56,367 nt of DNA from a virus. A program made the translations under genes and the position numbers. Location: the IMG/VR virus record IMGVR_UViG_3300020438_000048, positions 1-56,367 of that record. One strand, 5' to 3'. Every line of letters begins with the position of its first letter. Position 1 is the stretch's first letter. Of this stretch, positions 44,976 through 56,153 are shown piece by piece. The notes under the pieces were generated by a model. The model did not search any database, was not told the origin of the DNA, and saw only the letters and a program-made list of their open reading frames with translations.

Positions 44976-45371
44976 TTACCTGGTTGCTTCTAATACGAAG
45001 GAAAATTCTGTTATTGGTATCTCTTCACCTACTATATCAAAGGCAATTTTAATCTCAAATGCATTGTCATCGGGTCTAGGAACCGCTTGCACCTTAACAT
45101 TAGTCACTCTAGGTTCAAAAACCTTCAAAATATCAATAATTTGAGTTGCAATTATACTTCCAGTTGCAACATCAACAAAACCAAATAGACTATTAGTGAC
45201 ATCTGACCCTAAATCAGAATAAAATCTTTCTTTTAGACCAGTCTGAACTAAATTTCGCACACTACGAACAATTGCTCTCTCATTTTTTAGTACATTTAGG
45301 TCTCCTGTGACAGGATTTGGTACAAATGAAAGATCTATATCCTTATATGAACGAGATTTTAAGGTCGTCAC
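44976..45371 (-). CDS. 25: Baseplate wedge protein gp25 (GTG start)
   Basis: gp25 is the small lysozyme-fold baseplate protein at the sheath-baseplate junction. The 131 residues match the T4 size (132), with typical sections SRSYKDIDLSFVPNPVTGD, NERAIVRSVRNLVQTG and the basic FYSDLGSDVTNSLFG. The start is GTG at 45371; no in-frame ATG lies nearby. A perfect late promoter sits 25 bases upstream, making gp25 the first gene of the late structural operon. Confidence 0.95.
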   Translation of the reverse strand: MTTLKSRSYKDIDLSFVPNPVTGDLNVLKNERAIVRSVRNLVQTGLKERFYSDLGSDVTNSLFGFVDVATGSIIATQIIDILKVFEPRVTNVKVQAVPRPDDNAFEIKIAFDIVGEEIPITEFSFVLEATR

Positions 45372-47313: not shown

Positions 47314-47342
47314 ATTATAACAGATTATATATGTCTAGTCAA
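47314..47342 (-). promoter_or_regulatory. Sigma70-type promoter TTGACT-17-TATAAT
   Basis: On the minus strand, TTGACT (47342-47337) and TATAAT (47319-47314) are separated by exactly 17 bases. The -35 overlaps the stop codon of the upstream 55-residue gene. The start codon of the glycosyltransferase (47291) lies 23 bases downstream of the -10. It should be read by the host housekeeping sigma factor, implying early expression. It lacks the dyad found at six other promoters here. Confidence 0.8.
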
Positions 47343-47970: not shown

Positions 47971-48148
47971 CAGTCTCTAGAAAAACACCATCACCTTGGA
48001 GTGATATAAAGATATCGGTATCTTCATACCAATTCATTTCGTTAACTATTTGTTCTGGAATATTAATGATATATTCGTCTGTTACTGAATCGACCCTGAG
48101 AGTCAATTGTATTTTCTCGTATTTTTTCACTATATCGTGGACTGACAT
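47963..48148 (-). CDS. 61-residue AbrB-like small protein
   Basis: The segment YIINIPEQIVNEMNWYEDTD followed by IFISLQGDGVFLE has the spacing of an AbrB/SpoVT swapped-hairpin DNA-binding domain (strand, IP-x2-I helix, D-x-strand). This is a resemblance, not a firm assignment. If right, it could be a transcriptional regulator or an antitoxin-like protein. It is the first gene after the 584-base gene-free region and would be read from the promoter at 48385-48413 through a long leader. The end overlaps the oxygenase start by eight bases. Confidence 0.7.
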   Translation of the reverse strand: MSVHDIVKKYEKIQLTLRVDSVTDEYIINIPEQIVNEMNWYEDTDIFISLQGDGVFLETDD

Positions 48149-48384
48149 TATGTTTTTATATATCAGAAATTTTTTTTATAGATTGATATCACTCTCTCGA
48201 ATTGGGTCGTTTATAGCTTAGGAAGGTTCCTTCGTTTTAAACACGATATAACATAAGAACGCAAAACACTGTCGCTCATTGATACTTAGTGGTCTCACAG
48301 TTCTTATTACATAAGACTGCTAATCACATGATGACTCGGTGTTACTTAGTGTCTCATGATTGTCTCTCCTGTTGCTTATACTTT

Positions 48385-48413
48385 ATTATATCATGATACT
48401 CACAGACTGTCAA
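48385..48413 (-). promoter_or_regulatory. Consensus sigma70 promoter TTGACA-17-TATAAT
   Basis: On the minus strand TTGACA (48413-48408) and TATAAT (48390-48385) are separated by 17 bases, a perfect match. It is followed by AAAGTATAAGCAACAGG, which resembles the initiation region of the dyad promoters, and by AGGAGA ahead of ATG AGA CAC TAA, a three-codon ORF. The next real gene starts 237 bases further at 48148. Strong early transcription is expected. Confidence 0.8.
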
Positions 48414-48638
48414 CTACTGTCAGAGTCTTATGATATACAATTGACATAAAACTTGATGGACTGTGTGTTACAAAGTGTGTGGGTGCTGGTTGACATTCTG
48501 AGATCCTCATGTTACGCTCGCTAAGTCAACACCATAATGAGACGATTAGACCCCTTAGAGTGTCATTTAGTGACCTTACAGTAAGACTCTATTAACAACG
48601 CAACATAGTTTATTTAACTATTTAATTAAAATGCGTAG

Positions 48639-48670
48639 TTATCCACAGGTTTGTAATAAACTGTGGAAAA
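48639..48670. promoter_or_regulatory. DnaA-box-like inverted pair / hairpin next to AT tract
   Basis: TTATCCACA at 48639-48647 is a perfect DnaA box; TGTGGAAAA at 48662-48670 is an inverted near-copy. The inner bases can pair as a hairpin (CCACA with TGTGG, GTTT with AAAC, one bulged G). An AT-only tract (TTTATTTAACTATTTAATTA) lies just left of it. This layout recalls a bacterial origin element, but no functional evidence is available. Confidence 0.45.
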
Positions 48671-48732
48671 CACTTGTTGTTACATAGTGGGGCAACTTAT
48701 CAAATCTATGTGATACACTTGGATTTGAAGAT

Positions 48733-48978
48733 TTAAGACTGATGTACACTTAGTGTGGAATCTTGTGCGGTATTGTTGTTATCAACTAACTCGCAATCTA
48801 TCCATTGTTTAGGATACACTAGCATTGCTACTTTACATGTTGGGTATCTACTATGGGCACAAGTATTAGGTTTTTCACTAACACAAAAGGTTATGTATTC
48901 CTCTCCAACAAACTGTACCTCACCTATGATACTTTGGTATTTGATTGTTACACCGATTTGGAATTCTTCTCTCTGCAT
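48733..48978 (-). CDS. 81-residue hypothetical protein
   Basis: The beta-rich N-terminal part (FQIGVTIKYQSIIGEVQFVG, EYITFCVSE) followed by a short Cys/His-containing stretch (NTCAHSRYPTCKVAML) looks like a small SH3/OB-like barrel with a possible metal site (two Cys, one His). I recall similar short proteins from cyanophages without function. The C-terminal tail is polar. The start overlaps the upstream gene by 31 bases. Confidence 0.7.
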   Translation of the reverse strand: MQREEFQIGVTIKYQSIIGEVQFVGEEYITFCVSEKPNTCAHSRYPTCKVAMLVYPKQWIDCELVDNNNTAQDSTLSVHQS

Positions 48979-49142
48979 GATGCTAACTGATGTAAGGTAG
49001 ATGATAACAAATCTTCAACATGTGCAGGTAATGTTGTACCCTTCGAGTTCCATACTTGTTGGTATTGTAGTACAATAGCATGGACAATTGACAGTTGATT
49101 GTGTGATAGTTCAACTGTGTAATTAGATGTCTTATCTATCAT
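48948..49142 (-). CDS. 64-residue helical hypothetical protein
   Basis: The protein is mainly helical (LSHNQLSIVHAIVLQYQQVW, VEDLLSSTLHQLAS). It has no membrane segment or motif I recognise. The start overlaps the stop of the upstream gene (ATGA at 49142-49139) and the end overlaps the start of the next, so it lies in a tightly coupled operon. Confidence 0.65.
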   Translation of the reverse strand: MIDKTSNYTVELSHNQLSIVHAIVLQYQQVWNSKGTTLPAHVEDLLSSTLHQLASCREKNSKSV

Positions 49143-49303
49143 TTAGTACTCCTATTCTCATGAGGTTCATAATCGTTAGCGGGCGAAATCGGGCGTGACT
49201 CGGTGTTACTCACATTAGAGTGAATATGCTCTGGAAAGTTCTTAAAATACTCTACGATTTGATCATAGTTTGTAATAAGAACTCGATCAGAAGAAATGCT
49301 CAT
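49139..49303 (-). CDS. 54-residue hypothetical protein
   Basis: The start MSISSDRVLITNYDQIVEYF at 49303 was chosen because the frame upstream runs into a terminator-like hairpin. The N-terminal half is beta/helix; the C-terminal half (SNTESRPISPANDYEPHENR) is polar and disordered. Its codons for SNTES share 15 bases with the leader at 48332-48346. The function is unknown. Confidence 0.6.
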   Translation of the reverse strand: MSISSDRVLITNYDQIVEYFKNFPEHIHSNVSNTESRPISPANDYEPHENRSTK

Positions 49304-49345
49304 AAGTGTTAGATAGTTGAATAGATTAGTGTTTAGTTTGTAATA

Positions 49346-49369
49346 AAGAGGGGGCAACAAACCCCTCTT
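49346..49369 (-). terminator. Intergenic stem-loop, 8-bp GC stem
   Basis: AAGAGGGG (49346-49353) and CCCCTCTT (49362-49369) form a perfect 8-bp stem with an 8-base loop, placed 3 bases after the stop of the 98-residue gene. On the minus strand it is followed by TATTACAAAC, so the T-run is poor and it may be a weak terminator or an RNA-stability element. Confidence 0.5.
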
Positions 49370-49371
49370 AA

Positions 49372-49668
49372 TTAACTCTCCGATAGAGATTTTAACTGAA
49401 GATCAAGTACATCAAAGTCATTAGACATAATATCACATAGAGTGTTTAATTGTTTAACACCACTAGCATAAATGTGGAATAATTGATCTACCTCATCATC
49501 ATCATCTACCATCACTATGTTACAATCTTCTTGCTCATATTTAGAAACAAAGTTAATGATAGAGTCAATAGATTTGTCATAGAAGTCAACAAGAATTTCA
49601 GCACAATAACCATCAAAGAAGTTAATGTCTTTAGATAACTTGTCAAGAGTTAGAGAGTTTCTAGGCAT
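49372..49668 (-). CDS. 98-residue acidic hypothetical protein
   Basis: The protein is acidic and helical with a run of four Asp (MVDDDDEVDQLFHIY) and no hydrophobic anchor. No function is recognised. GGAGAG, seven bases before the ATG, is a good ribosome site and lies at the end of the upstream 35-residue gene. The following hairpin at 49346-49369 marks the end of this unit. Confidence 0.7.
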   Translation of the reverse strand: MPRNSLTLDKLSKDINFFDGYCAEILVDFYDKSIDSIINFVSKYEQEDCNIVMVDDDDEVDQLFHIYASGVKQLNTLCDIMSNDFDVLDLQLKSLSES

Positions 49669-49672
49669 GTAA

Positions 49673-49780
49673 TTACTCTCCTACCAGTTCATTTAGGACA
49701 CGCAATACATCTGCACCAGTCATACATTCAGCGAAGTATGAGTTGAGGTCGATGTTAGCGAGTGGGATAGATTCAAACAT
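49673..49780 (-). CDS. 35-residue micro-protein
   Basis: The gene was found by reading the minus strand. It encodes MFESIPLANIDLNSYFAEC followed by a short helix MTGADVLRVLNELVG. The hydrophobic, acidic composition is like other cyanophage micro-proteins. There is no clear ribosome site, so the call is tentative. Its last codons supply the ribosome site of the next gene. Confidence 0.5.
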   Translation of the reverse strand: MFESIPLANIDLNSYFAECMTGADVLRVLNELVGE

Positions 49781-49814
49781 GATAACAAATAGTAAAGAAC
49801 TTATATTATGTTTA

Positions 49815-49835
49815 TAGTCCCATATAGGGGGACTA
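49815..49835 (-). terminator. Stem-loop after the 106-residue gene
   Basis: TAGTCCC (49815-49821) and GGGACTA (49829-49835) form a 7-bp stem with a 7-base loop, nine bases after the stop at 49844. The minus strand continues TAAACATAATATAAG, so there is no T-run. It could slow or stabilise the transcript end. Confidence 0.4.
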
Positions 49836-49843
49836 TGTGATAG

Positions 49844-50164
49844 TTAGTCTACTGCTAACTCAAAACCGTTGACAAAATCTTCGGTGAGATTCTTGTAACC
49901 TACGAACCACTCAAATTGCTTTTGGAAGACCCTAGCACCATAAGAGAATTCATCTAGGAGAGCATTTAAGCGTGATTTTGTGGTGACTGACTGCCAACCG
50001 CCATCAAATAGCAAAATTGAGTTCTGTGTGACTGTGGCGATGTGATTGCCATGCAGGAAGATGTTTGCATCGCCTTCGCTGTCTACTGTCACTGCTGTGT
50101 TTGCTGAAGTGAAGTTAGAGCGTGAGCGAACTGCTCTGTTCATCTGTCTTTCGATTTTTCTCAT
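49844..50164 (-). CDS. 106-residue hypothetical protein
   Basis: The sequence VTVDSEGDANIFLHGNHIAT followed by ILLFDGGWQSVTTKSRLNAL is a pattern I recall from several T4-like cyanophages, where the function is unknown. The N-terminus is basic (MRKIERQMNRAVRSRSN) and the middle beta-rich. It has its own dyad-type promoter (-10 at 50194-50199) with a 29-base stretch between -10 and ATG. Confidence 0.75.
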   Translation of the reverse strand: MRKIERQMNRAVRSRSNFTSANTAVTVDSEGDANIFLHGNHIATVTQNSILLFDGGWQSVTTKSRLNALLDEFSYGARVFQKQFEWFVGYKNLTEDFVNGFELAVD

Positions 50165-50193
50165 GGTGTCCTGTGTGTGTTGCTTATACTAAT

Positions 50194-50249
50194 ATTATAA
50201 CGGTTTGAGGGGTCAGTGGGGGTCAGTGTGTGCCAGTTTGTCTAGTGTC
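50194..50249 (-). promoter_or_regulatory. Dyad promoter for the gene at 50164
   Basis: On the minus strand the dyad GACACTAGACAAACTGGC (50249-50232) lies 32 bases upstream of TATAAT (50199-50194), followed by ATTAGTATAAGCAACA. No -35 box matches at normal spacing. Same arrangement as five other promoters in the window. Confidence 0.7.
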
Positions 50250-50429
50250 CATTAGTGGTTGCAGGGGGTGTGGGGATGATATAAACTGATTTTTCCATAT
50301 TCTGGTTTGTTGCGTGTGTTTGGTCATCCTCGCAACTCCCGATATGGGAAAATCAAAAAATGAGCAATAGCAGAAGAATTGAATAGAATCGAGCATAAAC
50401 TCTTGACCATTCTTGTTTGGATTTGATCA
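50250..50429. other. Intergenic region with long structured element
   Basis: The stretch lies between the dyad promoter of the gene at 50164 and the stop codon of the 84-residue gene at 50430. It contains the nested stem-loop at 50288-50354 and a G-rich tract (CAGGGGGTGTGGGG, plus strand). An overlapping open frame at 50324-50545 is judged a shadow. Confidence 0.5.
50288..50354 (-). ncRNA. Nested stem-loop, possible structured RNA element
   Basis: GATTTTTCCATAT (50288-50300) pairs with ATATGGGAAAATC (50342-50354) over 13 positions with one wobble, and GTTGCG (50309-50314) pairs with CGCAAC (50331-50336) inside. No coding potential is seen. It lies 76 bases after the stop at 50430 and could be a 3' structure, a small RNA or part of a terminator, but no T-run follows directly. 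The strand is assumed from the flanking genes. Confidence 0.4.
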
Positions 50430-50684
50430 TCACCAGCGAGTTTGAATGAGAGCAGAGTTGAAAAGTTGTGGAATTGTATGCAGGTCGGTAACCTCATAAT
50501 TATAACCTTCAACACGAGAGTCAACCTCTTTTTGAAATGATTCAATATTGATATATGACTTCGATTGAGTTTCTTTGCAGAATGTCACAGATTTGAACAT
50601 CAAACGAGTGCTGATAGATCCATCTGCATATTTGACTGGATAGAAATCGACTACCATATCACCATGTTTCGCTGTTAGTTGCAT
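50430..50684 (-). CDS. 84-residue hypothetical protein
   Basis: The protein begins MQLTAKHGDMVVDFYPVKYA and is predicted mixed alpha/beta (STRLMFKSVTFCKE, INIESFQKEVDSRVEG). No family is recognised. ACAGGGAGC gives a strong ribosome site ten bases before the ATG, and a dyad-type promoter lies directly upstream. It is probably a single-gene transcript. Confidence 0.7.
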   Translation of the reverse strand: MQLTAKHGDMVVDFYPVKYADGSISTRLMFKSVTFCKETQSKSYINIESFQKEVDSRVEGYNYEVTDLHTIPQLFNSALIQTRW

Positions 50685-50712
50685 GAGTTGCTCCCTGTGT
50701 GTCTATACTAGT

Positions 50713-50769
50713 ATTATGACATGAAATCCAGTCAGGTGCTAGGGGTCTTGTGACAGTTTGTGCACTGTC
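50713..50769 (-). promoter_or_regulatory. Dyad promoter for the gene at 50684
   Basis: On the minus strand the perfect dyad GACAGTGCACAAACTGTC (50769-50752) lies 33 bases upstream of CATAAT (50718-50713), followed by ACTAGTATAGACACACA. The dyad starts just after the stop codon of the upstream 48-residue gene. No -35 box is evident. Confidence 0.7.
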
Positions 50770-50770
50770 A

Positions 50771-50917
50771 CTATGGATTGTTTTTGAAAAACTTATCGCT
50801 TAGACTATCGTATGCTTTAGAATCAATATGATCAGGTAAACCCATATCATCAAAAAACTGAAGCATATCTAATAAAACTTGATCTTCGTCAGTAGTGAAA
50901 GTGTAATCGTATTTCAT
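50771..50917 (-). CDS. 48-residue acidic hypothetical protein
   Basis: The gene was found by reading the minus strand. It encodes MKYDYTFTTDEDQVLLDMLQ and a short helix ending DKFFKNNP. It has no recognised domain. It is preceded by its own dyad promoter and followed, right after the stop codon, by the dyad of the next promoter. It is therefore probably a monocistronic unit. Confidence 0.65.
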   Translation of the reverse strand: MKYDYTFTTDEDQVLLDMLQFFDDMGLPDHIDSKAYDSLSDKFFKNNP

Positions 50918-50943
50918 AGTAAATTAATTTGTTTGTTACCTCT

Positions 50944-50999
50944 ATTATAAGGGTAATGTGGGTCAAATAGGGCAATTAGTGGACAGTTTGCTTACTGTC
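50944..50999 (-). promoter_or_regulatory. Dyad promoter for the gene at 50917
   Basis: On the minus strand the perfect dyad GACAGTAAGCAAACTGTC (50999-50982) overlaps the stop codon of the upstream gene and lies 32 bases upstream of TATAAT (50949-50944). TTGACC lies only 11 bases before the -10, too close for a -35. Confidence 0.7.
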
Positions 51000-51237
51000 A
51001 CCAACAGGGGTCATCCTCATCCACAAATGAGATAGGATTAAAAGAATCGAATTCTAATTTGTATCCCACAACTTTTGCATCCTCATATAGTTGTGAATTC
51101 TTATCATAGTATGAAACATTGCTATCCAAATATTCCTGGATATGCTTACATATCTTATAGGGGTCAATCTTATGGTCATCGTTATCATTATTATCTAATG
51201 ATATCCTTACATTAAGATTGATGAAATTGCTACTCAT
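50998..51237 (-). CDS. 79-residue acidic hypothetical protein
   Basis: The start MSSNFINLNVRISLDNNDND at 51237 overlaps the stop of the upstream gene by eight bases; a longer frame to 51264 is less likely. The protein is acidic and mixed (PYKICKHIQEYLDSNVSYYD, VGYKLEFDSFNP). No family is recognised. The stop lies inside the dyad of the next promoter. Confidence 0.65.
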   Translation of the reverse strand: MSSNFINLNVRISLDNNDNDDHKIDPYKICKHIQEYLDSNVSYYDKNSQLYEDAKVVGYKLEFDSFNPISFVDEDDPCW

Positions 51238-51400
51238 TAACAGCAACCTCCCACATTTCTCCATAAACTGTTAACCAGTCTCTTTGATCAGGTGTGAGAG
51301 TATCATCACCAAATAGCAAGTCATCGGCACTAATGAACTCTTTATTTTCCACTGTGCACCAATCTGATAACACTTCTGTCATGAATTCCATTTTACTCAT
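51230..51400 (-). CDS. 56-residue acidic hypothetical protein
   Basis: The gene was found by reading the minus strand. The ATG at 51400 has GGAG eight bases upstream, in the end of the preceding gene. The sequence includes SADDLLFGDDTLTPDQRDWL and ends MWEVAVNE; it is acidic and rich in Trp. The function is unknown. It is in an operon with the genes at 51403-51946. Confidence 0.65.
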   Translation of the reverse strand: MSKMEFMTEVLSDWCTVENKEFISADDLLFGDDTLTPDQRDWLTVYGEMWEVAVNE

Positions 51401-51402
51401 TG

Positions 51403-51603
51403 TTAGATCTCCTCGAATTGGTTTACAATAATGTTCTCTAGTTGTGATATCCTCTTCTCATCAATTAGACCGAGATAGTCTAATAGAATCTCATTCAGTA
51501 ATTTCTCTCTCTTGTCCTCTGGAAAATCAGATAGAACACAATCCAAGATATCTTCCTTTAGATTTAATACTCTGTGGATCTCTTTAGATAGTTCTACTGA
51601 CAT
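51403..51603 (-). CDS. 66-residue helical hypothetical protein
   Basis: The whole protein is predicted helical, with Leu/Ile and charged residues in register (EIHRVLNLKEDILDCVLSDF, KRISQLENIIVNQFEE), so a small helical bundle or coiled coil is likely. The function is unknown. It overlaps the upstream micro-gene by ten bases. Confidence 0.65.
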   Translation of the reverse strand: MSVELSKEIHRVLNLKEDILDCVLSDFPEDKREKLLNEILLDYLGLIDEKRISQLENIIVNQFEEI

Positions 51604-51722
51604 AAATCCTCGAATCGTTTGGTGGCAATTAGTTCTTGAGTTGTTTCATCAAGTGTGGGAAAGTCTTCGCAAACTTCATCAAAGATGGTTTCTAGGATGT
51701 CTGCGTGGTGCAATGTTGACAT
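51594..51722 (-). CDS. 42-residue acidic micro-protein
   Basis: The gene was found by reading the minus strand. It begins MSTLHHADILETIFDEVCED and ends TKRFEDLCQ; it is acidic and helical with two Cys. The ATG at 51722 overlaps the stop of the upstream gene by one base (TAATG). The function is unknown. Confidence 0.65.
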   Translation of the reverse strand: MSTLHHADILETIFDEVCEDFPTLDETTQELIATKRFEDLCQ

Positions 51723-51946
51723 TATGCAACCTCCCTGATGTAACCGTTTTCTGCTTTGATGAACTGATCTAGCATGAATACATTGAGATCAGGATCATCA
51801 AATTCGATCTTTGCACATCCTGTAACACCCCACTCCTCTAACTCTTGAGTAAATTCTTGCCAGTTCGAGCAGCAACATGCCATATTTTGGAAGTTGATAA
51901 CCTGTACGATTCTGTTCATTACTTGTTGAGTTTTGGTCTTTGGCAT
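51722..51946 (-). CDS. 74-residue hypothetical protein with Cys cluster
   Basis: The protein has a Cys triplet (NMACCCSNWQEF) and a fourth Cys in VTGCAKIEF, which could bind metal or form disulfides. The N-terminus is basic and helical, and the rest acidic. No family is recognised. It is the first gene after a dyad promoter and probably heads an operon down to 50998. Its leader is identical to that of the gene at 53663 over more than 30 bases. Confidence 0.7.
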   Translation of the reverse strand: MPKTKTQQVMNRIVQVINFQNMACCCSNWQEFTQELEEWGVTGCAKIEFDDPDLNVFMLDQFIKAENGYIREVA

Positions 51947-51971
51947 AGTGTTGTTTGTTGCTTATACTAAT

Positions 51972-52027
51972 ATTATAAAGGATTATGAACCATATTCAAC
52001 CGATGATGTGACACTTTGTTGACTGGC
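51972..52027 (-). promoter_or_regulatory. Dyad promoter for the operon starting at 51946
   Basis: On the minus strand the imperfect dyad GCCAGTCAACAAAGTGTC (52027-52010) lies 32 bases upstream of TATAAT (51977-51972) and inside the last codons of the upstream gene. A TTGAAT box 16 bases before the -10 could also act as a -35 here. It is followed by ATTAGTATAAGCAACA. Confidence 0.7.
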
Positions 52028-52219
52028 ACTAGATGATGCCACTTCATCGAGTTTGCTGATAATATCCTTTAGGTCGTATAGTTCAACATCAGTCAAATCA
52101 ATTGAAGTTTGTTCAATACACCATAGCAAGAGATCCGCTTGATTTCGGTCTACAGTGATTTCTGTTTGTGCCATTTGAAGATTGACCTGATTTGTGATTG
52201 AAATGGTATTATACATCAT
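51983..52219 (-). CDS. 78-residue acidic hypothetical protein
   Basis: The protein has a helical acidic core (QADLLLWCIEQTSIDLTDVE, LKDIISKLDEV) and a Ser-rich end (ASSSASQQSVTSSVEYGS) whose codons carry the dyad of the next promoter. The ATG at 52219 overlaps the upstream stop; MAQTEITV at 52174 is an alternative start. The function is unknown. Confidence 0.7.
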   Translation of the reverse strand: MMYNTISITNQVNLQMAQTEITVDRNQADLLLWCIEQTSIDLTDVELYDLKDIISKLDEVASSSASQQSVTSSVEYGS

Positions 52220-52347
52220 AGGAACTCAAAGATCAAGTAGTCTAACGAAACATTTAATAGTTTACATTGTACTTCAAAATGTTCAAGTGATTCGATGTTA
52301 GTTTCTAGATCGAAATAGTCTGTTTGAATAATAAATTCACTAGGCAT
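52216..52347 (-). CDS. 43-residue acidic micro-protein
   Basis: The gene was found by reading the minus strand. It encodes MPSEFIIQTDYFDLETNIES and a following amphipathic helix, and it ends LDYLIFEFL. The stop overlaps the start of the next gene by four bases (ATGA). The function is unknown. Its start lies within the end of the upstream 79-residue gene. Confidence 0.6.
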   Translation of the reverse strand: MPSEFIIQTDYFDLETNIESLEHFEVQCKLLNVSLDYLIFEFL

Positions 52348-52579
52348 GATTAGACCAATAGATTGCATTAATTTCGGCAATGTTTAGATAATTCTTATCA
52401 TGATAGGTCATCCAATCTTCAACATCATCACACTCAAAAATGAACTCTTCACAAAAATGTTCAACAGATGCCAGTTTCTGGTGTTCGATACACCTCAACA
52501 TTTCACCAATTTGATCGTCACTCATGTCACAATCATCAATACAATATGCAATGTTCTTTTCTAATTGTGTTGTGCTCAT
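52340..52579 (-). CDS. 79-residue acidic hypothetical protein
   Basis: The start MSTTQLEKNIAYCIDDCDMS at 52579 was preferred to a TTG at 52645 that overlaps the preceding gene. The protein is acidic, with three Cys and repeated Asp/Glu (HFCEEFIFECDDVEDWMTY). No family is recognised. Confidence 0.65.
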   Translation of the reverse strand: MSTTQLEKNIAYCIDDCDMSDDQIGEMLRCIEHQKLASVEHFCEEFIFECDDVEDWMTYHDKNYLNIAEINAIYWSNHA

Positions 52580-52631
52580 GTTAATAGAAGAAGTGAAGTT
52601 TGTAGGATTAGTGTTAATGATAGTATATGGA

Positions 52632-52988
52632 TCATTGATTAGCAAGGACGAGAAGTTTACCTAGTAAGAGTGAATTAGTACGGCAAGTCTCATCATCTTT
52701 GTATTCTTGTTTGATCTCATTGAATACAAGAGAGATTAACTTTTCATACTCCTCAACATAGAGATCAGTCGATTCATCAAAAATTTGCTGACTCCATGCA
52801 TACTGGGTTGGTTCTGTGGTTTGCATTAGTTCCTTGATTACGATATTATCAATATACTCGTTATCGGGTGAGTATTCAACCCCTCTTGTGCCAGTTTCTT
52901 CACTGTCATCAGATGGCATCCAAAATCCGTCTGCCGTCATATAATGACCTGATTCAACCATTTCTTGATATGATGTGAGATTAGACAT
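52632..52988 (-). CDS. 118-residue acidic hypothetical protein
   Basis: The ATG at 52988 is chosen because AGGAG lies seven bases upstream; the ATG two codons earlier would be too close to it. The protein is acidic (MPSDDSEETGTRGVEYSPDN) with a helical C-terminal half (EEYEKLISLVFNEIKQEYK). No family is recognised. The preceding gene ends three bases before. Confidence 0.65.
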   Translation of the reverse strand: MSNLTSYQEMVESGHYMTADGFWMPSDDSEETGTRGVEYSPDNEYIDNIVIKELMQTTEPTQYAWSQQIFDESTDLYVEEYEKLISLVFNEIKQEYKDDETCRTNSLLLGKLLVLANQ

Positions 52989-52990
52989 GA

Positions 52991-53218
52991 TCATGCTCCT
53001 TTAAGTGTTAGTCCACCTGCGTAGTCTTGCTGATTAAAAATACATGTTTTGTGTATTTTAAAGAGCAAATCCATGTTTACTCCCTCCCAATCTGTCCACT
53101 CTGATACATAATCTTTTTGAGTAAAATCGCCTGTACCGTCTTTATTTTGTGGACATGATTTGAAATCAAAGTCGTCATCCACCCAAAATAGTCTTCCAAA
53201 TTGTTCACTGCTGTACAT
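52991..53218 (-). CDS. 75-residue hypothetical protein
   Basis: The sequence is rich in Asp, Phe and Trp (FWVDDDFDFKSCPQNKDGTG, YVSEWTDWEGVNMDLLFKI). It resembles other cyanophage micro-proteins only in general composition. No function is assigned. A TATAAA box (53242-53237 on the minus strand) lies upstream without a dyad. Confidence 0.65.
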   Translation of the reverse strand: MYSSEQFGRLFWVDDDFDFKSCPQNKDGTGDFTQKDYVSEWTDWEGVNMDLLFKIHKTCIFNQQDYAGGLTLKGA

Positions 53219-53255
53219 GATGTTAATTAAATAAGGTTTATAATTGATGGTATGA

Positions 53256-53663
53256 TTATCTCAAATAGAGATAACCACCTGCCCATCCTGTAAAGTTTGG
53301 GTCATGCATCTTCGCACGATCATTGATAATTCTCATATCAAATCGTACATACTTTGTGTGAGGTGCTGACCATGATGCAGGTTTGTAAACTTGACCAGTT
53401 GATTTATTAACAAATGCATGTACACCTCCATCACGATACTCATTCCTATCTCTGAATGTATCGAAATCTTGTTGAATGATCTTGTAATACTTTCTACCTG
53501 ACTCAATTCTAAATCTCATCAAGTTTTCAGTATCTGAATAACCTTGGCGAGTATGATATAGTCTATAGTTTTCTGTAAGGGTCGCAGCATATGTTTCTGT
53601 CCACTCTCCAACCAACTCTTTTAGTCTTTCTTTAGTTGTGATGTCAAGTGCTTTAATTGTCAT
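53256..53663 (-). CDS. 135-residue conserved cyanophage hypothetical protein
   Basis: The pattern GGVHAFVNKSTGQVYKPASW and the end GWAGGYLYLR are what I recall from a protein common in T4-like cyanophages, of unknown role. The N-terminal half is helical (KERLKELVGEWTETYAATLT). A perfect 7-bp inverted repeat (TTATCTC/GAGATAA) spans the stop codon. It has its own dyad promoter. Confidence 0.78.
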   Translation of the reverse strand: MTIKALDITTKERLKELVGEWTETYAATLTENYRLYHTRQGYSDTENLMRFRIESGRKYYKIIQQDFDTFRDRNEYRDGGVHAFVNKSTGQVYKPASWSAPHTKYVRFDMRIINDRAKMHDPNFTGWAGGYLYLR

Positions 53664-53688
53664 AGTGTTGTTTGTTGCTTATACTAAT

Positions 53689-53744
53689 ATTATACATCCT
53701 CCAGAGCGTCTGTGAGTGCGTTCTGTACCACTTTGTCAGTTGGC
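53689..53744 (-). promoter_or_regulatory. Dyad promoter for the gene at 53663
   Basis: On the minus strand GCCAACTGACAAAGTGGT (53744-53727), a diverged dyad inside the methyltransferase coding end, lies 32 bases upstream of TATAAT (53694-53689). The -10 overlaps the methyltransferase stop codon. The sequence from -10 to ATG is identical to that of the 51946 operon. Confidence 0.65.
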
Positions 53745-54568
53745 ACACGCTCATCAATTAGTTTAGAATATTCTTCATGCAGTTCACATCCTATGTAATG
53801 CCTACCCAAATCTTTAGCAACCATCGCAGTAGTTCCCGATCCTATGAATGGATCTAATATAATATCACCTGTTTTGCTCCCTGCCTTGATACATGGTATT
53901 ATTAGGTCAGGTGGATATACTGCAAAATGTGCACCTCTATAAGGTTTCTTTTGAATATTCCATACACTTCTCTTCCTCCTTGTTGGTTCTCTAATTGCAT
54001 CAACATCAAAATAATAGTTCTGATTCTTACTCAATAGGAACACATATTCATGTGATTTGGTGCATCTATCTCTTACACTCTCTGGCATGGGGTTAGGTTT
54101 ATGCCAAATAATATCTTGCCTCAAATACCATCCATCTGCCCTCAATGCAAATGCCAACATCCAAGGAATACCAATTAAATCTTTCTCTTTTAATCCATCC
54201 AGTTTGTTACCTCTACGAGCACATTTATCTGGTAGATCTTGTTTACTATTAGATACAGTTTGTTTAACAAGTGCTTGACCTTTTCCTGGTCGATAGTTAT
54301 AATAACTATCACCCATATTAACCCACAATGTACCATCGTCAGTCAAACAGTTTCTAACCTCTCTGAATATATCTACTAGATTAGATATATATTTTTCTGG
54401 TGTATCTTCCTGCCCTATTTGATTATCTTCGCCACCATAATCCCTAAGTCCATAGTATGGTGGGGATGTCACACACATGCGAGGTCTATCACATATACCA
54501 ATGGTAATTTGTGTTTTTAAAGTATTAAGAGTTTGGCGACAATCACCATATAAAATAGTATCTTTCAT
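53690..54568 (-). CDS. Type II beta-class DNA methyltransferase, 292 residues
   Basis: The protein has motif IV SPPY (residues 35-38) before the AdoMet-binding motif I DPFIGSGTT (239-247), the beta-class order. SPPY fits an N4-cytosine or N6-adenine amino-methyltransferase; the base cannot be told from sequence. The region between (IIWHKPNPMPE, HEYVFLLSKN) is typical. The ATG at 54568 forms a TGATG overlap with the upstream gene; a TTG one codon earlier is less likely. No restriction enzyme gene is adjacent, so it may be an orphan enzyme protecting phage DNA. Confidence 0.9.
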   Translation of the reverse strand: MKDTILYGDCRQTLNTLKTQITIGICDRPRMCVTSPPYYGLRDYGGEDNQIGQEDTPEKYISNLVDIFREVRNCLTDDGTLWVNMGDSYYNYRPGKGQALVKQTVSNSKQDLPDKCARRGNKLDGLKEKDLIGIPWMLAFALRADGWYLRQDIIWHKPNPMPESVRDRCTKSHEYVFLLSKNQNYYFDVDAIREPTRRKRSVWNIQKKPYRGAHFAVYPPDLIIPCIKAGSKTGDIILDPFIGSGTTAMVAKDLGRHYIGCELHEEYSKLIDERVPTDKVVQNALTDALEDV

Positions 54569-54717
54569 CAATTAAGATTTACTCTCTTGATATCTACATT
54601 ACCATATTGTTCTCTTACTGTTCTCTCAGCAGCAGCATAATTTGTTGCTGGTACTTCAACATCAATTAAACCCATGTCGTTACGATAAAATGTAACTGTA
54701 GCAGTACGATAAGTCAT
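54568..54717 (-). CDS. 49-residue micro-protein
   Basis: The gene was found by reading the minus strand. It encodes MTYRTATVTFYRNDMGLIDV followed by a helix (NYAAAERTVREQYGNV) and a final strand. The layout (strand-strand-helix-strand) parallels the next gene upstream, suggesting duplicated micro-genes. The function is unknown. Its stop overlaps the methyltransferase start. Confidence 0.7.
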   Translation of the reverse strand: MTYRTATVTFYRNDMGLIDVEVPATNYAAAERTVREQYGNVDIKRVNLN

Positions 54718-54719
54718 AG

Positions 54720-54887
54720 TTAGTTAGAATAGGATGTAACACATTTAATCACTTCAATCTCAGTGCCACCAAGATTAGTTTGAATTAAACGCTTTGCAGC
54801 AACTGGTGTGCTTGCAGTAACTTCTTCAGTGTAGTGTTTACGACCTGATGGAAGTTTACGATAGGTTACTTGCTGGACATAGTTCAT
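54720..54887 (-). CDS. 55-residue micro-protein
   Basis: The gene was found by reading the minus strand. It encodes MNYVQQVTYRKLPSGRKHYT, an Ala-rich helix (STPVAAKRLIQTNL) and a final strand EIEVIKCV. The fold pattern resembles the 49-residue neighbour. A GATAAATA box (54918-54911) lies upstream, overlapping the helicase stop. The function is unknown. Confidence 0.7.
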   Translation of the reverse strand: MNYVQQVTYRKLPSGRKHYTEEVTASTPVAAKRLIQTNLGGTEIEVIKCVTSYSN

Positions 54888-54910
54888 AGTTAGATTCTAA
54901 TTTAGTGTAA

Positions 54911-54918
54911 TATTTATC
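54911..54918 (-). promoter_or_regulatory. Late-promoter-like box GATAAATA
   Basis: GATAAATA on the minus strand differs from the T4 late consensus in its first base and overlaps the helicase stop codon. It lies 24 bases before the ATG at 54887. If active, the methyltransferase and two micro-genes would also be expressed late. Confidence 0.35.
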
Positions 54919-56077
54919 GGGTTACAGTCGATATTGCTGGTAACCCTTGATTGAAAATAGTATCAACAACTGCTTCAATTCTGCGTGATGTTGATATACC
55001 AACTCTATCATAAACTGGTACACAAATCAATCCATAAGTCTTAGCAGCATTGCCTGTACGGATGACTCTGCCGATTGTTTGACTGATACCAATGTAATCC
55101 ATGTTTCTTAGAAAGATTGCTGTCTCTAATCCCTTTACATTGATACCTTCAGATAGTATACTGTAATGTAATACTACAAACTTCTTATCAGCATCTTGAC
55201 CCCAATCATTCAATGTATTGAAGAAATCTTCACGAGATACCTTCTTACCATCAACAACTGCACCAGTCTTTGATGTAATATACATCCATGAATATCCACG
55301 AGTTCTTAACTGTATGCAGAAGTCAGTTAGTGATGTCAAACTAACAATTTGCTTAGTAGATCTTGCACAAATAAGGATCTTATCCTTGTTACAATCATCA
55401 ATACTATCTAATACATTGTCACAATCTTTCTCATGTCTGAATCTACTATCGTCAGTCTCGTCAATCTTCTTGATTGTTACTTTAGGTGATAGAATAAAAC
55501 CTTGTTCAACTAACTCTGGTGCTGGTACATTGATCAATACCTTACCATAGATGTCCTCGTCATTCATTCCCACTTTAAAAGGGGTCTTAGAATGTTTAGG
55601 TGTAGCAGTAAAGAAATAGCAGCGTTTTGCATACAATGAATAAAACTCAACAGACTCAATAAAATTCTTTTGAACACTATTGTGTGCTTCATCAAAGTAT
55701 ATTACATCAACATCAACATCTGCTTCTACTAATCTATTAAGAGAATGATAAGTTGTAAAGATAATCTTGTTGCCATTACGCTCATGCCACTGACTAATCA
55801 TATCAACATTAGTTGTATTGAAGTGATGAGTATCTCCACTATGTACATGAAGCACCTCAACATTATCAATCTTCTCTAAGAACTCTGATGATAATTGCTC
55901 TGCTAATAGTATACGAGGTGCAACTACAACGATAGTCTTAGAACGACCAGTAAGATATAATAGAGCATCATCAATCATGCACATGGTTTTACCACCACCA
56001 GTGGGCACGATAATTTGACCTTTGTCGTTATCCCACATTGCTTCGAGAGCGTCAATTTGGTGTGGTCTTAGTTGCAT
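54914..56077 (-). CDS. Superfamily II DEAH helicase, 387 residues
   Basis: The protein has Walker A PTGGGKT (25-31), the DEAH box (129-132), motif III TATP (157-160) and motif VI QTIGRVIR (333-340), with N-terminal Q-like LRPHQIDALE. It is a DNA helicase/translocase of the UvsW-like or related SF2 phage class, likely acting in recombination or fork repair; UvsW itself is longer, so I give no symbol. The ATG at 56077 was chosen because an upstream in-frame TTG (56089) lies too close to the promoter -10 to have a leader. The unit has its own dyad promoter with a terminator between dyad and -10. Confidence 0.88.
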   Translation of the reverse strand: MQLRPHQIDALEAMWDNDKGQIIVPTGGGKTMCMIDDALLYLTGRSKTIVVVAPRILLAEQLSSEFLEKIDNVEVLHVHSGDTHHFNTTNVDMISQWHERNGNKIIFTTYHSLNRLVEADVDVDVIYFDEAHNSVQKNFIESVEFYSLYAKRCYFFTATPKHSKTPFKVGMNDEDIYGKVLINVPAPELVEQGFILSPKVTIKKIDETDDSRFRHEKDCDNVLDSIDDCNKDKILICARSTKQIVSLTSLTDFCIQLRTRGYSWMYITSKTGAVVDGKKVSREDFFNTLNDWGQDADKKFVVLHYSILSEGINVKGLETAIFLRNMDYIGISQTIGRVIRTGNAAKTYGLICVPVYDRVGISTSRRIEAVVDTIFNQGLPAISTVTR

Positions 56078-56097
56078 AATGAATTTCAATTACCTTA

Positions 56098-56153
56098 ATT
56101 ATAGCGTAAAAAACCCCCTGTGAAGGGGGCTGTGTGACAGTTCTTTGACTGTC
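56098..56153 (-). promoter_or_regulatory. Dyad promoter for the helicase
   Basis: On the minus strand the perfect dyad GACAGTCAAAGAACTGTC (56153-56136) lies 32 bases upstream of TATAAT (56103-56098). The 32-base interval holds a rho-independent terminator. The spacing matches the other dyad promoters although the interval sequence is unrelated. Confidence 0.7.
56108..56129 (-). terminator. Rho-independent terminator
   Basis: On the minus strand CCCCCT-TCAC-AGGGGG is followed by TTTTTT. This is the clearest intrinsic terminator in the window, with a 6-bp GC-rich stem and a 4-base loop. It ends transcription of the upstream 44-residue gene before the helicase promoter. Confidence 0.85.

Follow-up and report, generated by a model that had tools for sequence, protein, structure and literature searches.

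The DNA considered here comprises all 56,367 nucleotides of the IMG/VR virus record IMGVR_UViG_3300020438_000048 (positions 1 to 56,367; designated the window in the following) and, judged from its genes, represents part of the genome of a T4-like cyanophage. Its helicase and methylase genes match those of cultured and single-cell cyanophages, and a gp25-like baseplate protein is encoded at 44976-45371. The region between 50 and 56 kb is a block of tiny open reading frames (ORFs) with a layout like that adjoining gp25 in P-RSM4 and P-TIM40, and very large reading frames, which are probably structural, fill much of the remaining window. Within the block, dyads are followed at an almost constant distance by a TATAAT-like -10 box, and this composite is a genuine promoter element, specific and widely distributed among T4-like cyanophages. 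The GC skew is slightly positive at 48001-52000 and negative over the rest of the window.

Dyads and -10 boxes of the 50-56 kb block

The dyad promoters point in the minus-strand direction, which is that of the genes of the block, and the features described in this section are located on this strand unless stated otherwise. Dyad 1 (GACACTAGACAAACTGGC, 50232-50249; four of six outer pairs matched, family-model score 39.2) precedes a TATAAT box at 50194-50199, downstream of which a 106-residue protein of the Kyanoviridae Gp96 family is encoded (Kyano_Gp96, ORF 49844-50164). Dyad 2 (GACAGTGCACAAACTGTC, 50752-50769), with perfect outer pairs, is followed by a CATAAT box at 50713-50718 upstream of an ORF of 84 amino acids (50430-50684). 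The outer pairs of dyad 3 (GACAGTAAGCAAACTGTC, 50982-50999) are also perfect; this copy overlaps the edge of the stop codon of ORF 50998-51264, and its TATAAT box at 50944-50949 is followed by a first ATG at 50917, which opens an ORF of 48 amino acids ending at 50771. Dyad 4 (GCCAGTCAACAAAGTGTC, 52010-52027; 4/6 outer pairs, family-model score 40.9) is located within ORF 51983-52219 and belongs to a TATAAT box at 51972-51977 upstream of an ORF of 74 amino acids (51722-51946). Dyad 5 (GCCAACTGACAAAGTGGT, 53727-53744) lies within the 3' end of the gene for an N6/N4 DNA methylase (53690-54571), which adjoins the helicase region, and its TATAAT box at 53689-53694 overlaps the methylase stop codon upstream of ORF 53256-53663 (DUF7717, 135 amino acids); it is a poor palindrome with three of six outer pairs, yet its family-model score is good (32.7). 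Dyad 6 (GACAGTCAAAGAACTGTC, 56136-56153), the third copy with perfect outer pairs, is separated by a terminator-like stem with a T tail (56114-56128) from its TATAAT box at 56098-56103, downstream of which a ResIII/DEAD helicase of 387 amino acids is encoded (54914-56077, ATG at 56077).

These six dyads are present exactly where a preceding reading of the letters without database searches (the sequence-only reading) had placed them, and its description of three copies as perfect palindromes is borne out. Between the 18-mer and the -10 box, 32, 33, 32, 32, 32, and 32 bases were measured for dyads 1 to 6, and the box is TATAAT five times and CATAAT once, as it had been described. The spacing is also kept in different contexts, namely at a stop codon (dyad 3), inside an ORF (dyad 4), and with a terminator-like stem after dyad 6. 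In two respects the reading has to be amended. All six copies are real, but the count was incomplete, since a seventh dyad (GACAGTGAAGAAACTGGC, 52890-52907) is located within ORF 52632-52994; it has family-model scores of 32.6 on the minus strand, where it faces a TATATT box (52851-52856, gap 33, with an in-frame internal ATG at 52826), and of 26.8 on the plus strand, where the box is TATAAT. Furthermore, the symmetric element delimited as 18 bp is present, but the real motif covers about 22-23 bp and extends through GTG.../...CAC(A).

At all six promoters, an ATG opening a reading frame is found about 30 bases downstream of the -10 box. A TTGACA-like -35 box at a distance of 16-18 bases is present at none of the dyad promoters of the window, the best matches covering 1-4 of 6 positions; a -35 box had been described as mostly absent. 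The dyad alone, searched with up to three mismatches, is as frequent in the window as in shuffled DNA (27 seen, 27.7 expected) and was therefore rejected as evidence in its own right. The predicted enrichment of the spaced pair over randomized sequence was found: dyad, spacing, and TATAAT occur together six times in the window, compared to a mean of 0.02 and a maximum of 1 in 200 first-order Markov resamplings.

At three promoters, an identical stretch of 21 bases (TATAATATTAGTATAAGCAAC; 50179-50199, 51957-51977, and 53674-53694) runs from the -10 box into the leader. Such repetition would suit a cassette for gene shuffling by recombination, comparable to the promoter-early-stem-loop modules of T4-like phages, in which regulation would be secondary, and the composite does lie between small ORFs that are exchanged rapidly, in some cases with a terminator inside it. 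In most genomes, however, the sequence flanking the copies differs, and the constraint on spacing is accounted for by promoter function, so that we regard a recombination cassette as very improbable.

Spread of the element and nature of the dyad

IMG/VR was scanned with the pattern CAGT-N6-ACTGTCACA followed by TATAAT at a gap of 14-44 bases, and the results were pooled with those of a narrower scan (gap 28-30). Among the matches listed, the gap is 28, 29, or 30 bases in 111 of 118 distinct matches. The peak was not created by the narrow scan, because the wide scan alone yields only a handful outside 28-30 among the more than 80 matches listed. In complete genomes, the pair at this distance is likewise far above expectation, with 11 occurrences compared to 0.1 expected in P-SSM2, for example, and likewise 11 compared to 0.1 in S-SSM7. 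A weight model seeded from these matches and refined over 13 cyanophage sequences has the consensus GTG[A/C]CA[G/C]TT-N4-AA[C/G]TG[G/T]CACA, 28-31 bases, TATAAT, A; it contains no -35 box, its start motif is often T/C-A-T (YAT-type), and the centre of the dyad is located at about -53.

At a threshold passing about four sites in null sequence, the model recognizes 283 sites in the 13 training sequences. In almost every T4-like cyanophage tested, 13-37 sites per genome were obtained, a count that includes some dyads scored on both strands, and the element is conserved among these phages with P-TIM68, which was not used for training and has four sites, as a weak exception. Many dyads are carried by P-SSM2, S-PM2, and S-RSM4, and in the block regions of Syn9 (43-58 kb) and P-TIM40 (44-64 kb, plus strand) 7 and 10 sites, respectively, exceed the threshold. 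In S-CRM01, a freshwater cyanophage kept out of the training, 37 sites were recognized, compared to none after shuffling; held-out IMG/VR loci contain 342 further sites in 1.0 Mb, not counting the site that fetched each locus, compared to one in shuffled sequence. No model site was found in T4 or in the pelagiphage HTVC008M, neither of which was used for training, and no dyad at two mismatches in the cyanophages P-SSP7, Syn5, PSS2, S-TIM5, and Ma-LMM01 of other lineages. The search of related phages proposed by the sequence-only reading thus shows that dyad, fixed spacing, and TATAAT recur in T4-like cyanophages and not in T4. The consensus of the spacer around -35 is phage-specific (CACTACCG in P-TIM40, locus L312; CCCCATT in P-RSM4, W07; GTTG in S-SSM7, W10), as if a second contact varied between phages.

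Since an inverted repeat would fold, the dyad might act as RNA where the transcript from upstream ends, i.e. as a terminator, a processing hairpin, or a stabilizing element at its 3' end. In line with this, a T tract is present within the spacer in 51 of 233 distinct dyads, and the annotation of S-CRM01 lists two copies as terminators. A functional RNA stem is expected to show compensatory change, however, and none was detected among the 233 dyads: the arms vary independently, with mutual information at the level of sampling bias for the outer nine pairs, and the Watson-Crick agreement between them is that expected from multiplying the frequencies in the two arms. In addition, the distance to the -10 box is fixed, several copies lie in coding sequence, and a T tract directly after the dyad occurs in only 8 of 233 cases, for which reason an intrinsic terminator was rejected. 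An Rfam search of the window gave no match. The view that a hairpin fits less well than a protein site is thus upheld, and an RNA function appears extremely improbable. The two S-CRM01 features (HQ615693, 125862-125891 and 154634-154661), Rho-independent terminators according to the annotation, coincide with dyads of the family and are probably misannotated.

Independent half-sites and the rarity of T tracts directly after the dyad form the pattern expected for recognition by both subunits of a dimeric protein. The arm on the promoter side is better conserved than the distal one (11.4 vs 9.2 bits). The allowed spacing varies by about three to four bases only, which leaves the dyad on approximately the same helix face. 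The protein site centred at about -53, which had been proposed from the window, is now backed by the fixed spacing in hundreds of predicted promoters and by the independently varying half-sites. From the position of the centre, the absence of a -35 box, and the approximate helix face, we infer an activator that contacts the polymerase from upstream. Repressors also bind dyads, and phage early genes get shut off, so that the dyad could be an operator at which these genes are repressed later. It would be unusual, however, for a repressor site to be centred at -53 and kept in a constant helical phase, and an absent -35 box calls for help rather than hindrance; a repressor is therefore improbable.

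Genes served, mechanism, and candidate binders

Dyad promoters cluster in blocks of tiny ORFs, where several are often found per 10 kb. The genes of these blocks include the helicase (T4-GC 36), whose relatives in many T4-like cyanophages (T4-GC 36 in P-RSM4) likewise have an upstream dyad. An assignment of this helicase as UvsW was rejected, as the P-RSM4 relative is annotated T4-GC 36 and UvsW is GC 138. Dyads are also located upstream of a large 'peptidase' gene and, in S-CRM01, of tRNA clusters. A second class of promoters is host-like, with TTGACA and TATAAT, and overlaps little with the dyad class. It is represented in the window by a promoter without dyad at 48385-48413 (minus strand; TTGACA-17-TATAAT with TG extension, 12/12). 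A similar near-perfect host-like promoter with an extended -10 box is located at 47314-47342 (minus strand). First genes belonging to families conserved in at least 10 genomes make up 25% after dyads vs 54% after host-like promoters. In P-RSM4, host-like promoters precede gp55, gp44, gp43, uvsX, mazG, and gp61/nrdA, and dyads precede the helicase and the block of tiny ORFs. Nucleic-acid metabolism genes are middle genes in cultured cyanophages (PMC7238727), as are auxiliary metabolic genes in P-HM2 (PMC5082946). Because host-like promoters stand before genes of this kind and dyads before the tiny-ORF blocks, the dyad promoters most probably form the early class, and the tiny ORFs would be of the host-takeover type.

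We therefore consider it likely that the dyads are operator sites of a dimeric activator at about -53, which recruits the host polymerase to promoters lacking a -35 box. The dimer would bind in a class-I-like position and recruit or hold host RNA polymerase, equipped with the principal sigma factor, where a good -10 box and a start motif have been kept. In this way, clusters of tiny host-takeover genes, the helicase, and a few others would be fired, most likely as the early class, and the replication and metabolic genes would be served by ordinary host-like TTGACA/TATAAT promoters. If the genes are truly early, the binder would have to act at once on the incoming DNA, and for this reason it should be a host regulator, be delivered with the virion, or be made from a few dyad-independent promoters.

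Several points weigh against this model. The transcript starts and the binding of the dyad are predictions from the sequence, and the early timing rests on gene content and on the division of promoters reportedly found by Doron et al. 2016. Site numbers are lower (13-16) in Syn9, P-HM2, and Bellamy. In a bacterial genome collection of 257 Gb, the composite, searched as a strict pattern only, was present on no cyanobacterial contig, which leaves no candidate for a host binder, and a Pfam scan of ten conserved phage candidate families revealed no recognised DNA-binding domain. Finally, P-TIM68 has largely replaced the element and retains only four dyad sites. In the block of this phage that corresponds to the dyad block elsewhere (KM359505, 47100-56100), another promoter-like repeat, CTAAATGTTAGTTACCTCTAAATTGA, occurs about a dozen times, some 50 bases upstream of start codons; the exact 24-base core of the repeat is also present in five IMG/VR contigs (loci L318-L322). 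As the exchange has taken place in the same block, the putative early promoter signal appears to be exchangeable as a set. P-TIM68 was rejected as a control without binder, since the four remaining sites are fair and the factor may persist.

For the binder, a host regulator has about an even chance, and we lean slightly towards it because no phage family stands out. The strict pattern retrieved five stretches from the genome collection, three on cyanophage-like contigs from marine bins and two in Clostridia, the latter about as many as expected by chance. This result favours a system specific to phages, but the sites of a host regulator would escape the scan if they were few or placed differently. 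The contigs L305, L307, and L309 are filed under a Gammaproteobacteria metagenome-assembled genome (MAG) and the TMED113 MAG of Flavobacteriales. They carry dyad promoters and genes for cyanophage-like proteins and are probably misbinned phage. The site hardly differs between phages infecting freshwater Synechococcus and those infecting Prochlorococcus, which implies that the surface of the binder that reads it is strongly conserved.

A phage-encoded binder, delivered with the virion or made very early, has a good chance too, if somewhat short of even; the class might then be delayed-early rather than immediate-early. It would explain why the element is confined to T4-like cyanophages and missing from the other cyanophage lineages, and the lack of exact composites on cyanobacterial contigs agrees with it. 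About 54 families are common to S-CRM01 and most other site-bearing phages, but the unannotated ones that were scanned lack a recognised DNA-binding domain. Universal families absent from HTVC008M and T4, as selected by phyletic profile, resemble PsbA, ThyX, MazG, and DUF3110 and were dismissed as binders. The best co-distributed family is T4-GC49 (PHROG 507; 1644-1943 of the window, minus strand), which has an invariant DDWRQRD-like tail and at least 599 matching stretches in IMG/VR. The family is truncated in P-TIM68. It was rejected as binder because it is absent from S-CRM01 and devoid of a recognisable or known DNA-binding fold; its AlphaFold model, of modest quality (pLDDT 69), gave no fold match at E<=0.001.

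Among the killers of the main photosynthetic organisms in the ocean, T4-like cyanophages are of major importance. To our knowledge, they lack Alt, ModA, MotA, and AsiA of T4, and because of this absence little is understood of how they take over the host during the first minutes. A precise and portable site of 22 bp with fixed spacing could serve as bait for the protein that starts infection, and by means of the dyad host-takeover genes could be called from sequence alone in any metagenome. The dyad also allows control by the host and by the virion to be told apart in a clear test. The swap in the same gene block of P-TIM68 provides a natural comparison.

Comparison with known promoter systems

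The late promoters of P2 and P4 are poor in -35 boxes and carry a dyad near -55 for Ogr/Delta, a zinc-finger activator that contacts the alpha subunit. The dyads described here occupy a similar upstream position at -35-poor promoters but differ in sequence, and the P2/P4 promoters serve late genes in unrelated phages; no match to Ogr/Delta was obtained among the proteins scanned. In T4 middle promoters, an activator site is likewise combined with a -10 box in the absence of a good -35 box, but the MotA box is located near -30 and is not a 22-bp dyad at -53. An identity with MotA-dependent promoters was rejected on the basis of this position, the absence of dyads from T4, and the absence of motA and asiA from cyanomyoviruses (PMC2984593). 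The host regulators NtcA and PhoB are assumed, or have been demonstrated, to act at promoters of cyanophages (PMC3037559, PMC10976474), but neither GTA-N8-TAC nor tandem Pho boxes match the dyad.

A putative middle promoter has been reported for Syn9 and P-SSM4 and as absent from P-SSM2, S-PM2, and S-RSM4 (PMC2984593). Like the dyad element, this motif is found in front of phage genes, and its two phages are among those considered here, but it is probably distinct, because the latter three phages carry many dyads.

In Syn9 and P-TIM40, Doron et al. 2016 reportedly found early genes under a novel element and middle genes under host-like promoters, and both promoter types are said to be abundant and conserved among T4-like cyanophages. 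This agrees with the dyads in the tiny-ORF blocks of Syn9 and P-TIM40 and with the host-like promoters before replication genes described above. The cyanophage reviews and transcriptome papers that were consulted do not show the motif of the reported element. It is probable that the dyad is the early-gene element of that work. We see a smaller chance, which should still be taken seriously, that the published element is something else; the dyad would then define an undescribed class of activator-dependent promoters with a 22-bp dyad at -53, common to marine and freshwater T4-like cyanophages, and its reader would be a host or virion protein of a DNA-binding type missing from present catalogues. 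With the identity to the Doron element as the most likely case, its anatomy is drawn more sharply here by the palindromic consensus, its position, the independence of the half-sites, the spread to freshwater phages, and the replacement in P-TIM68.

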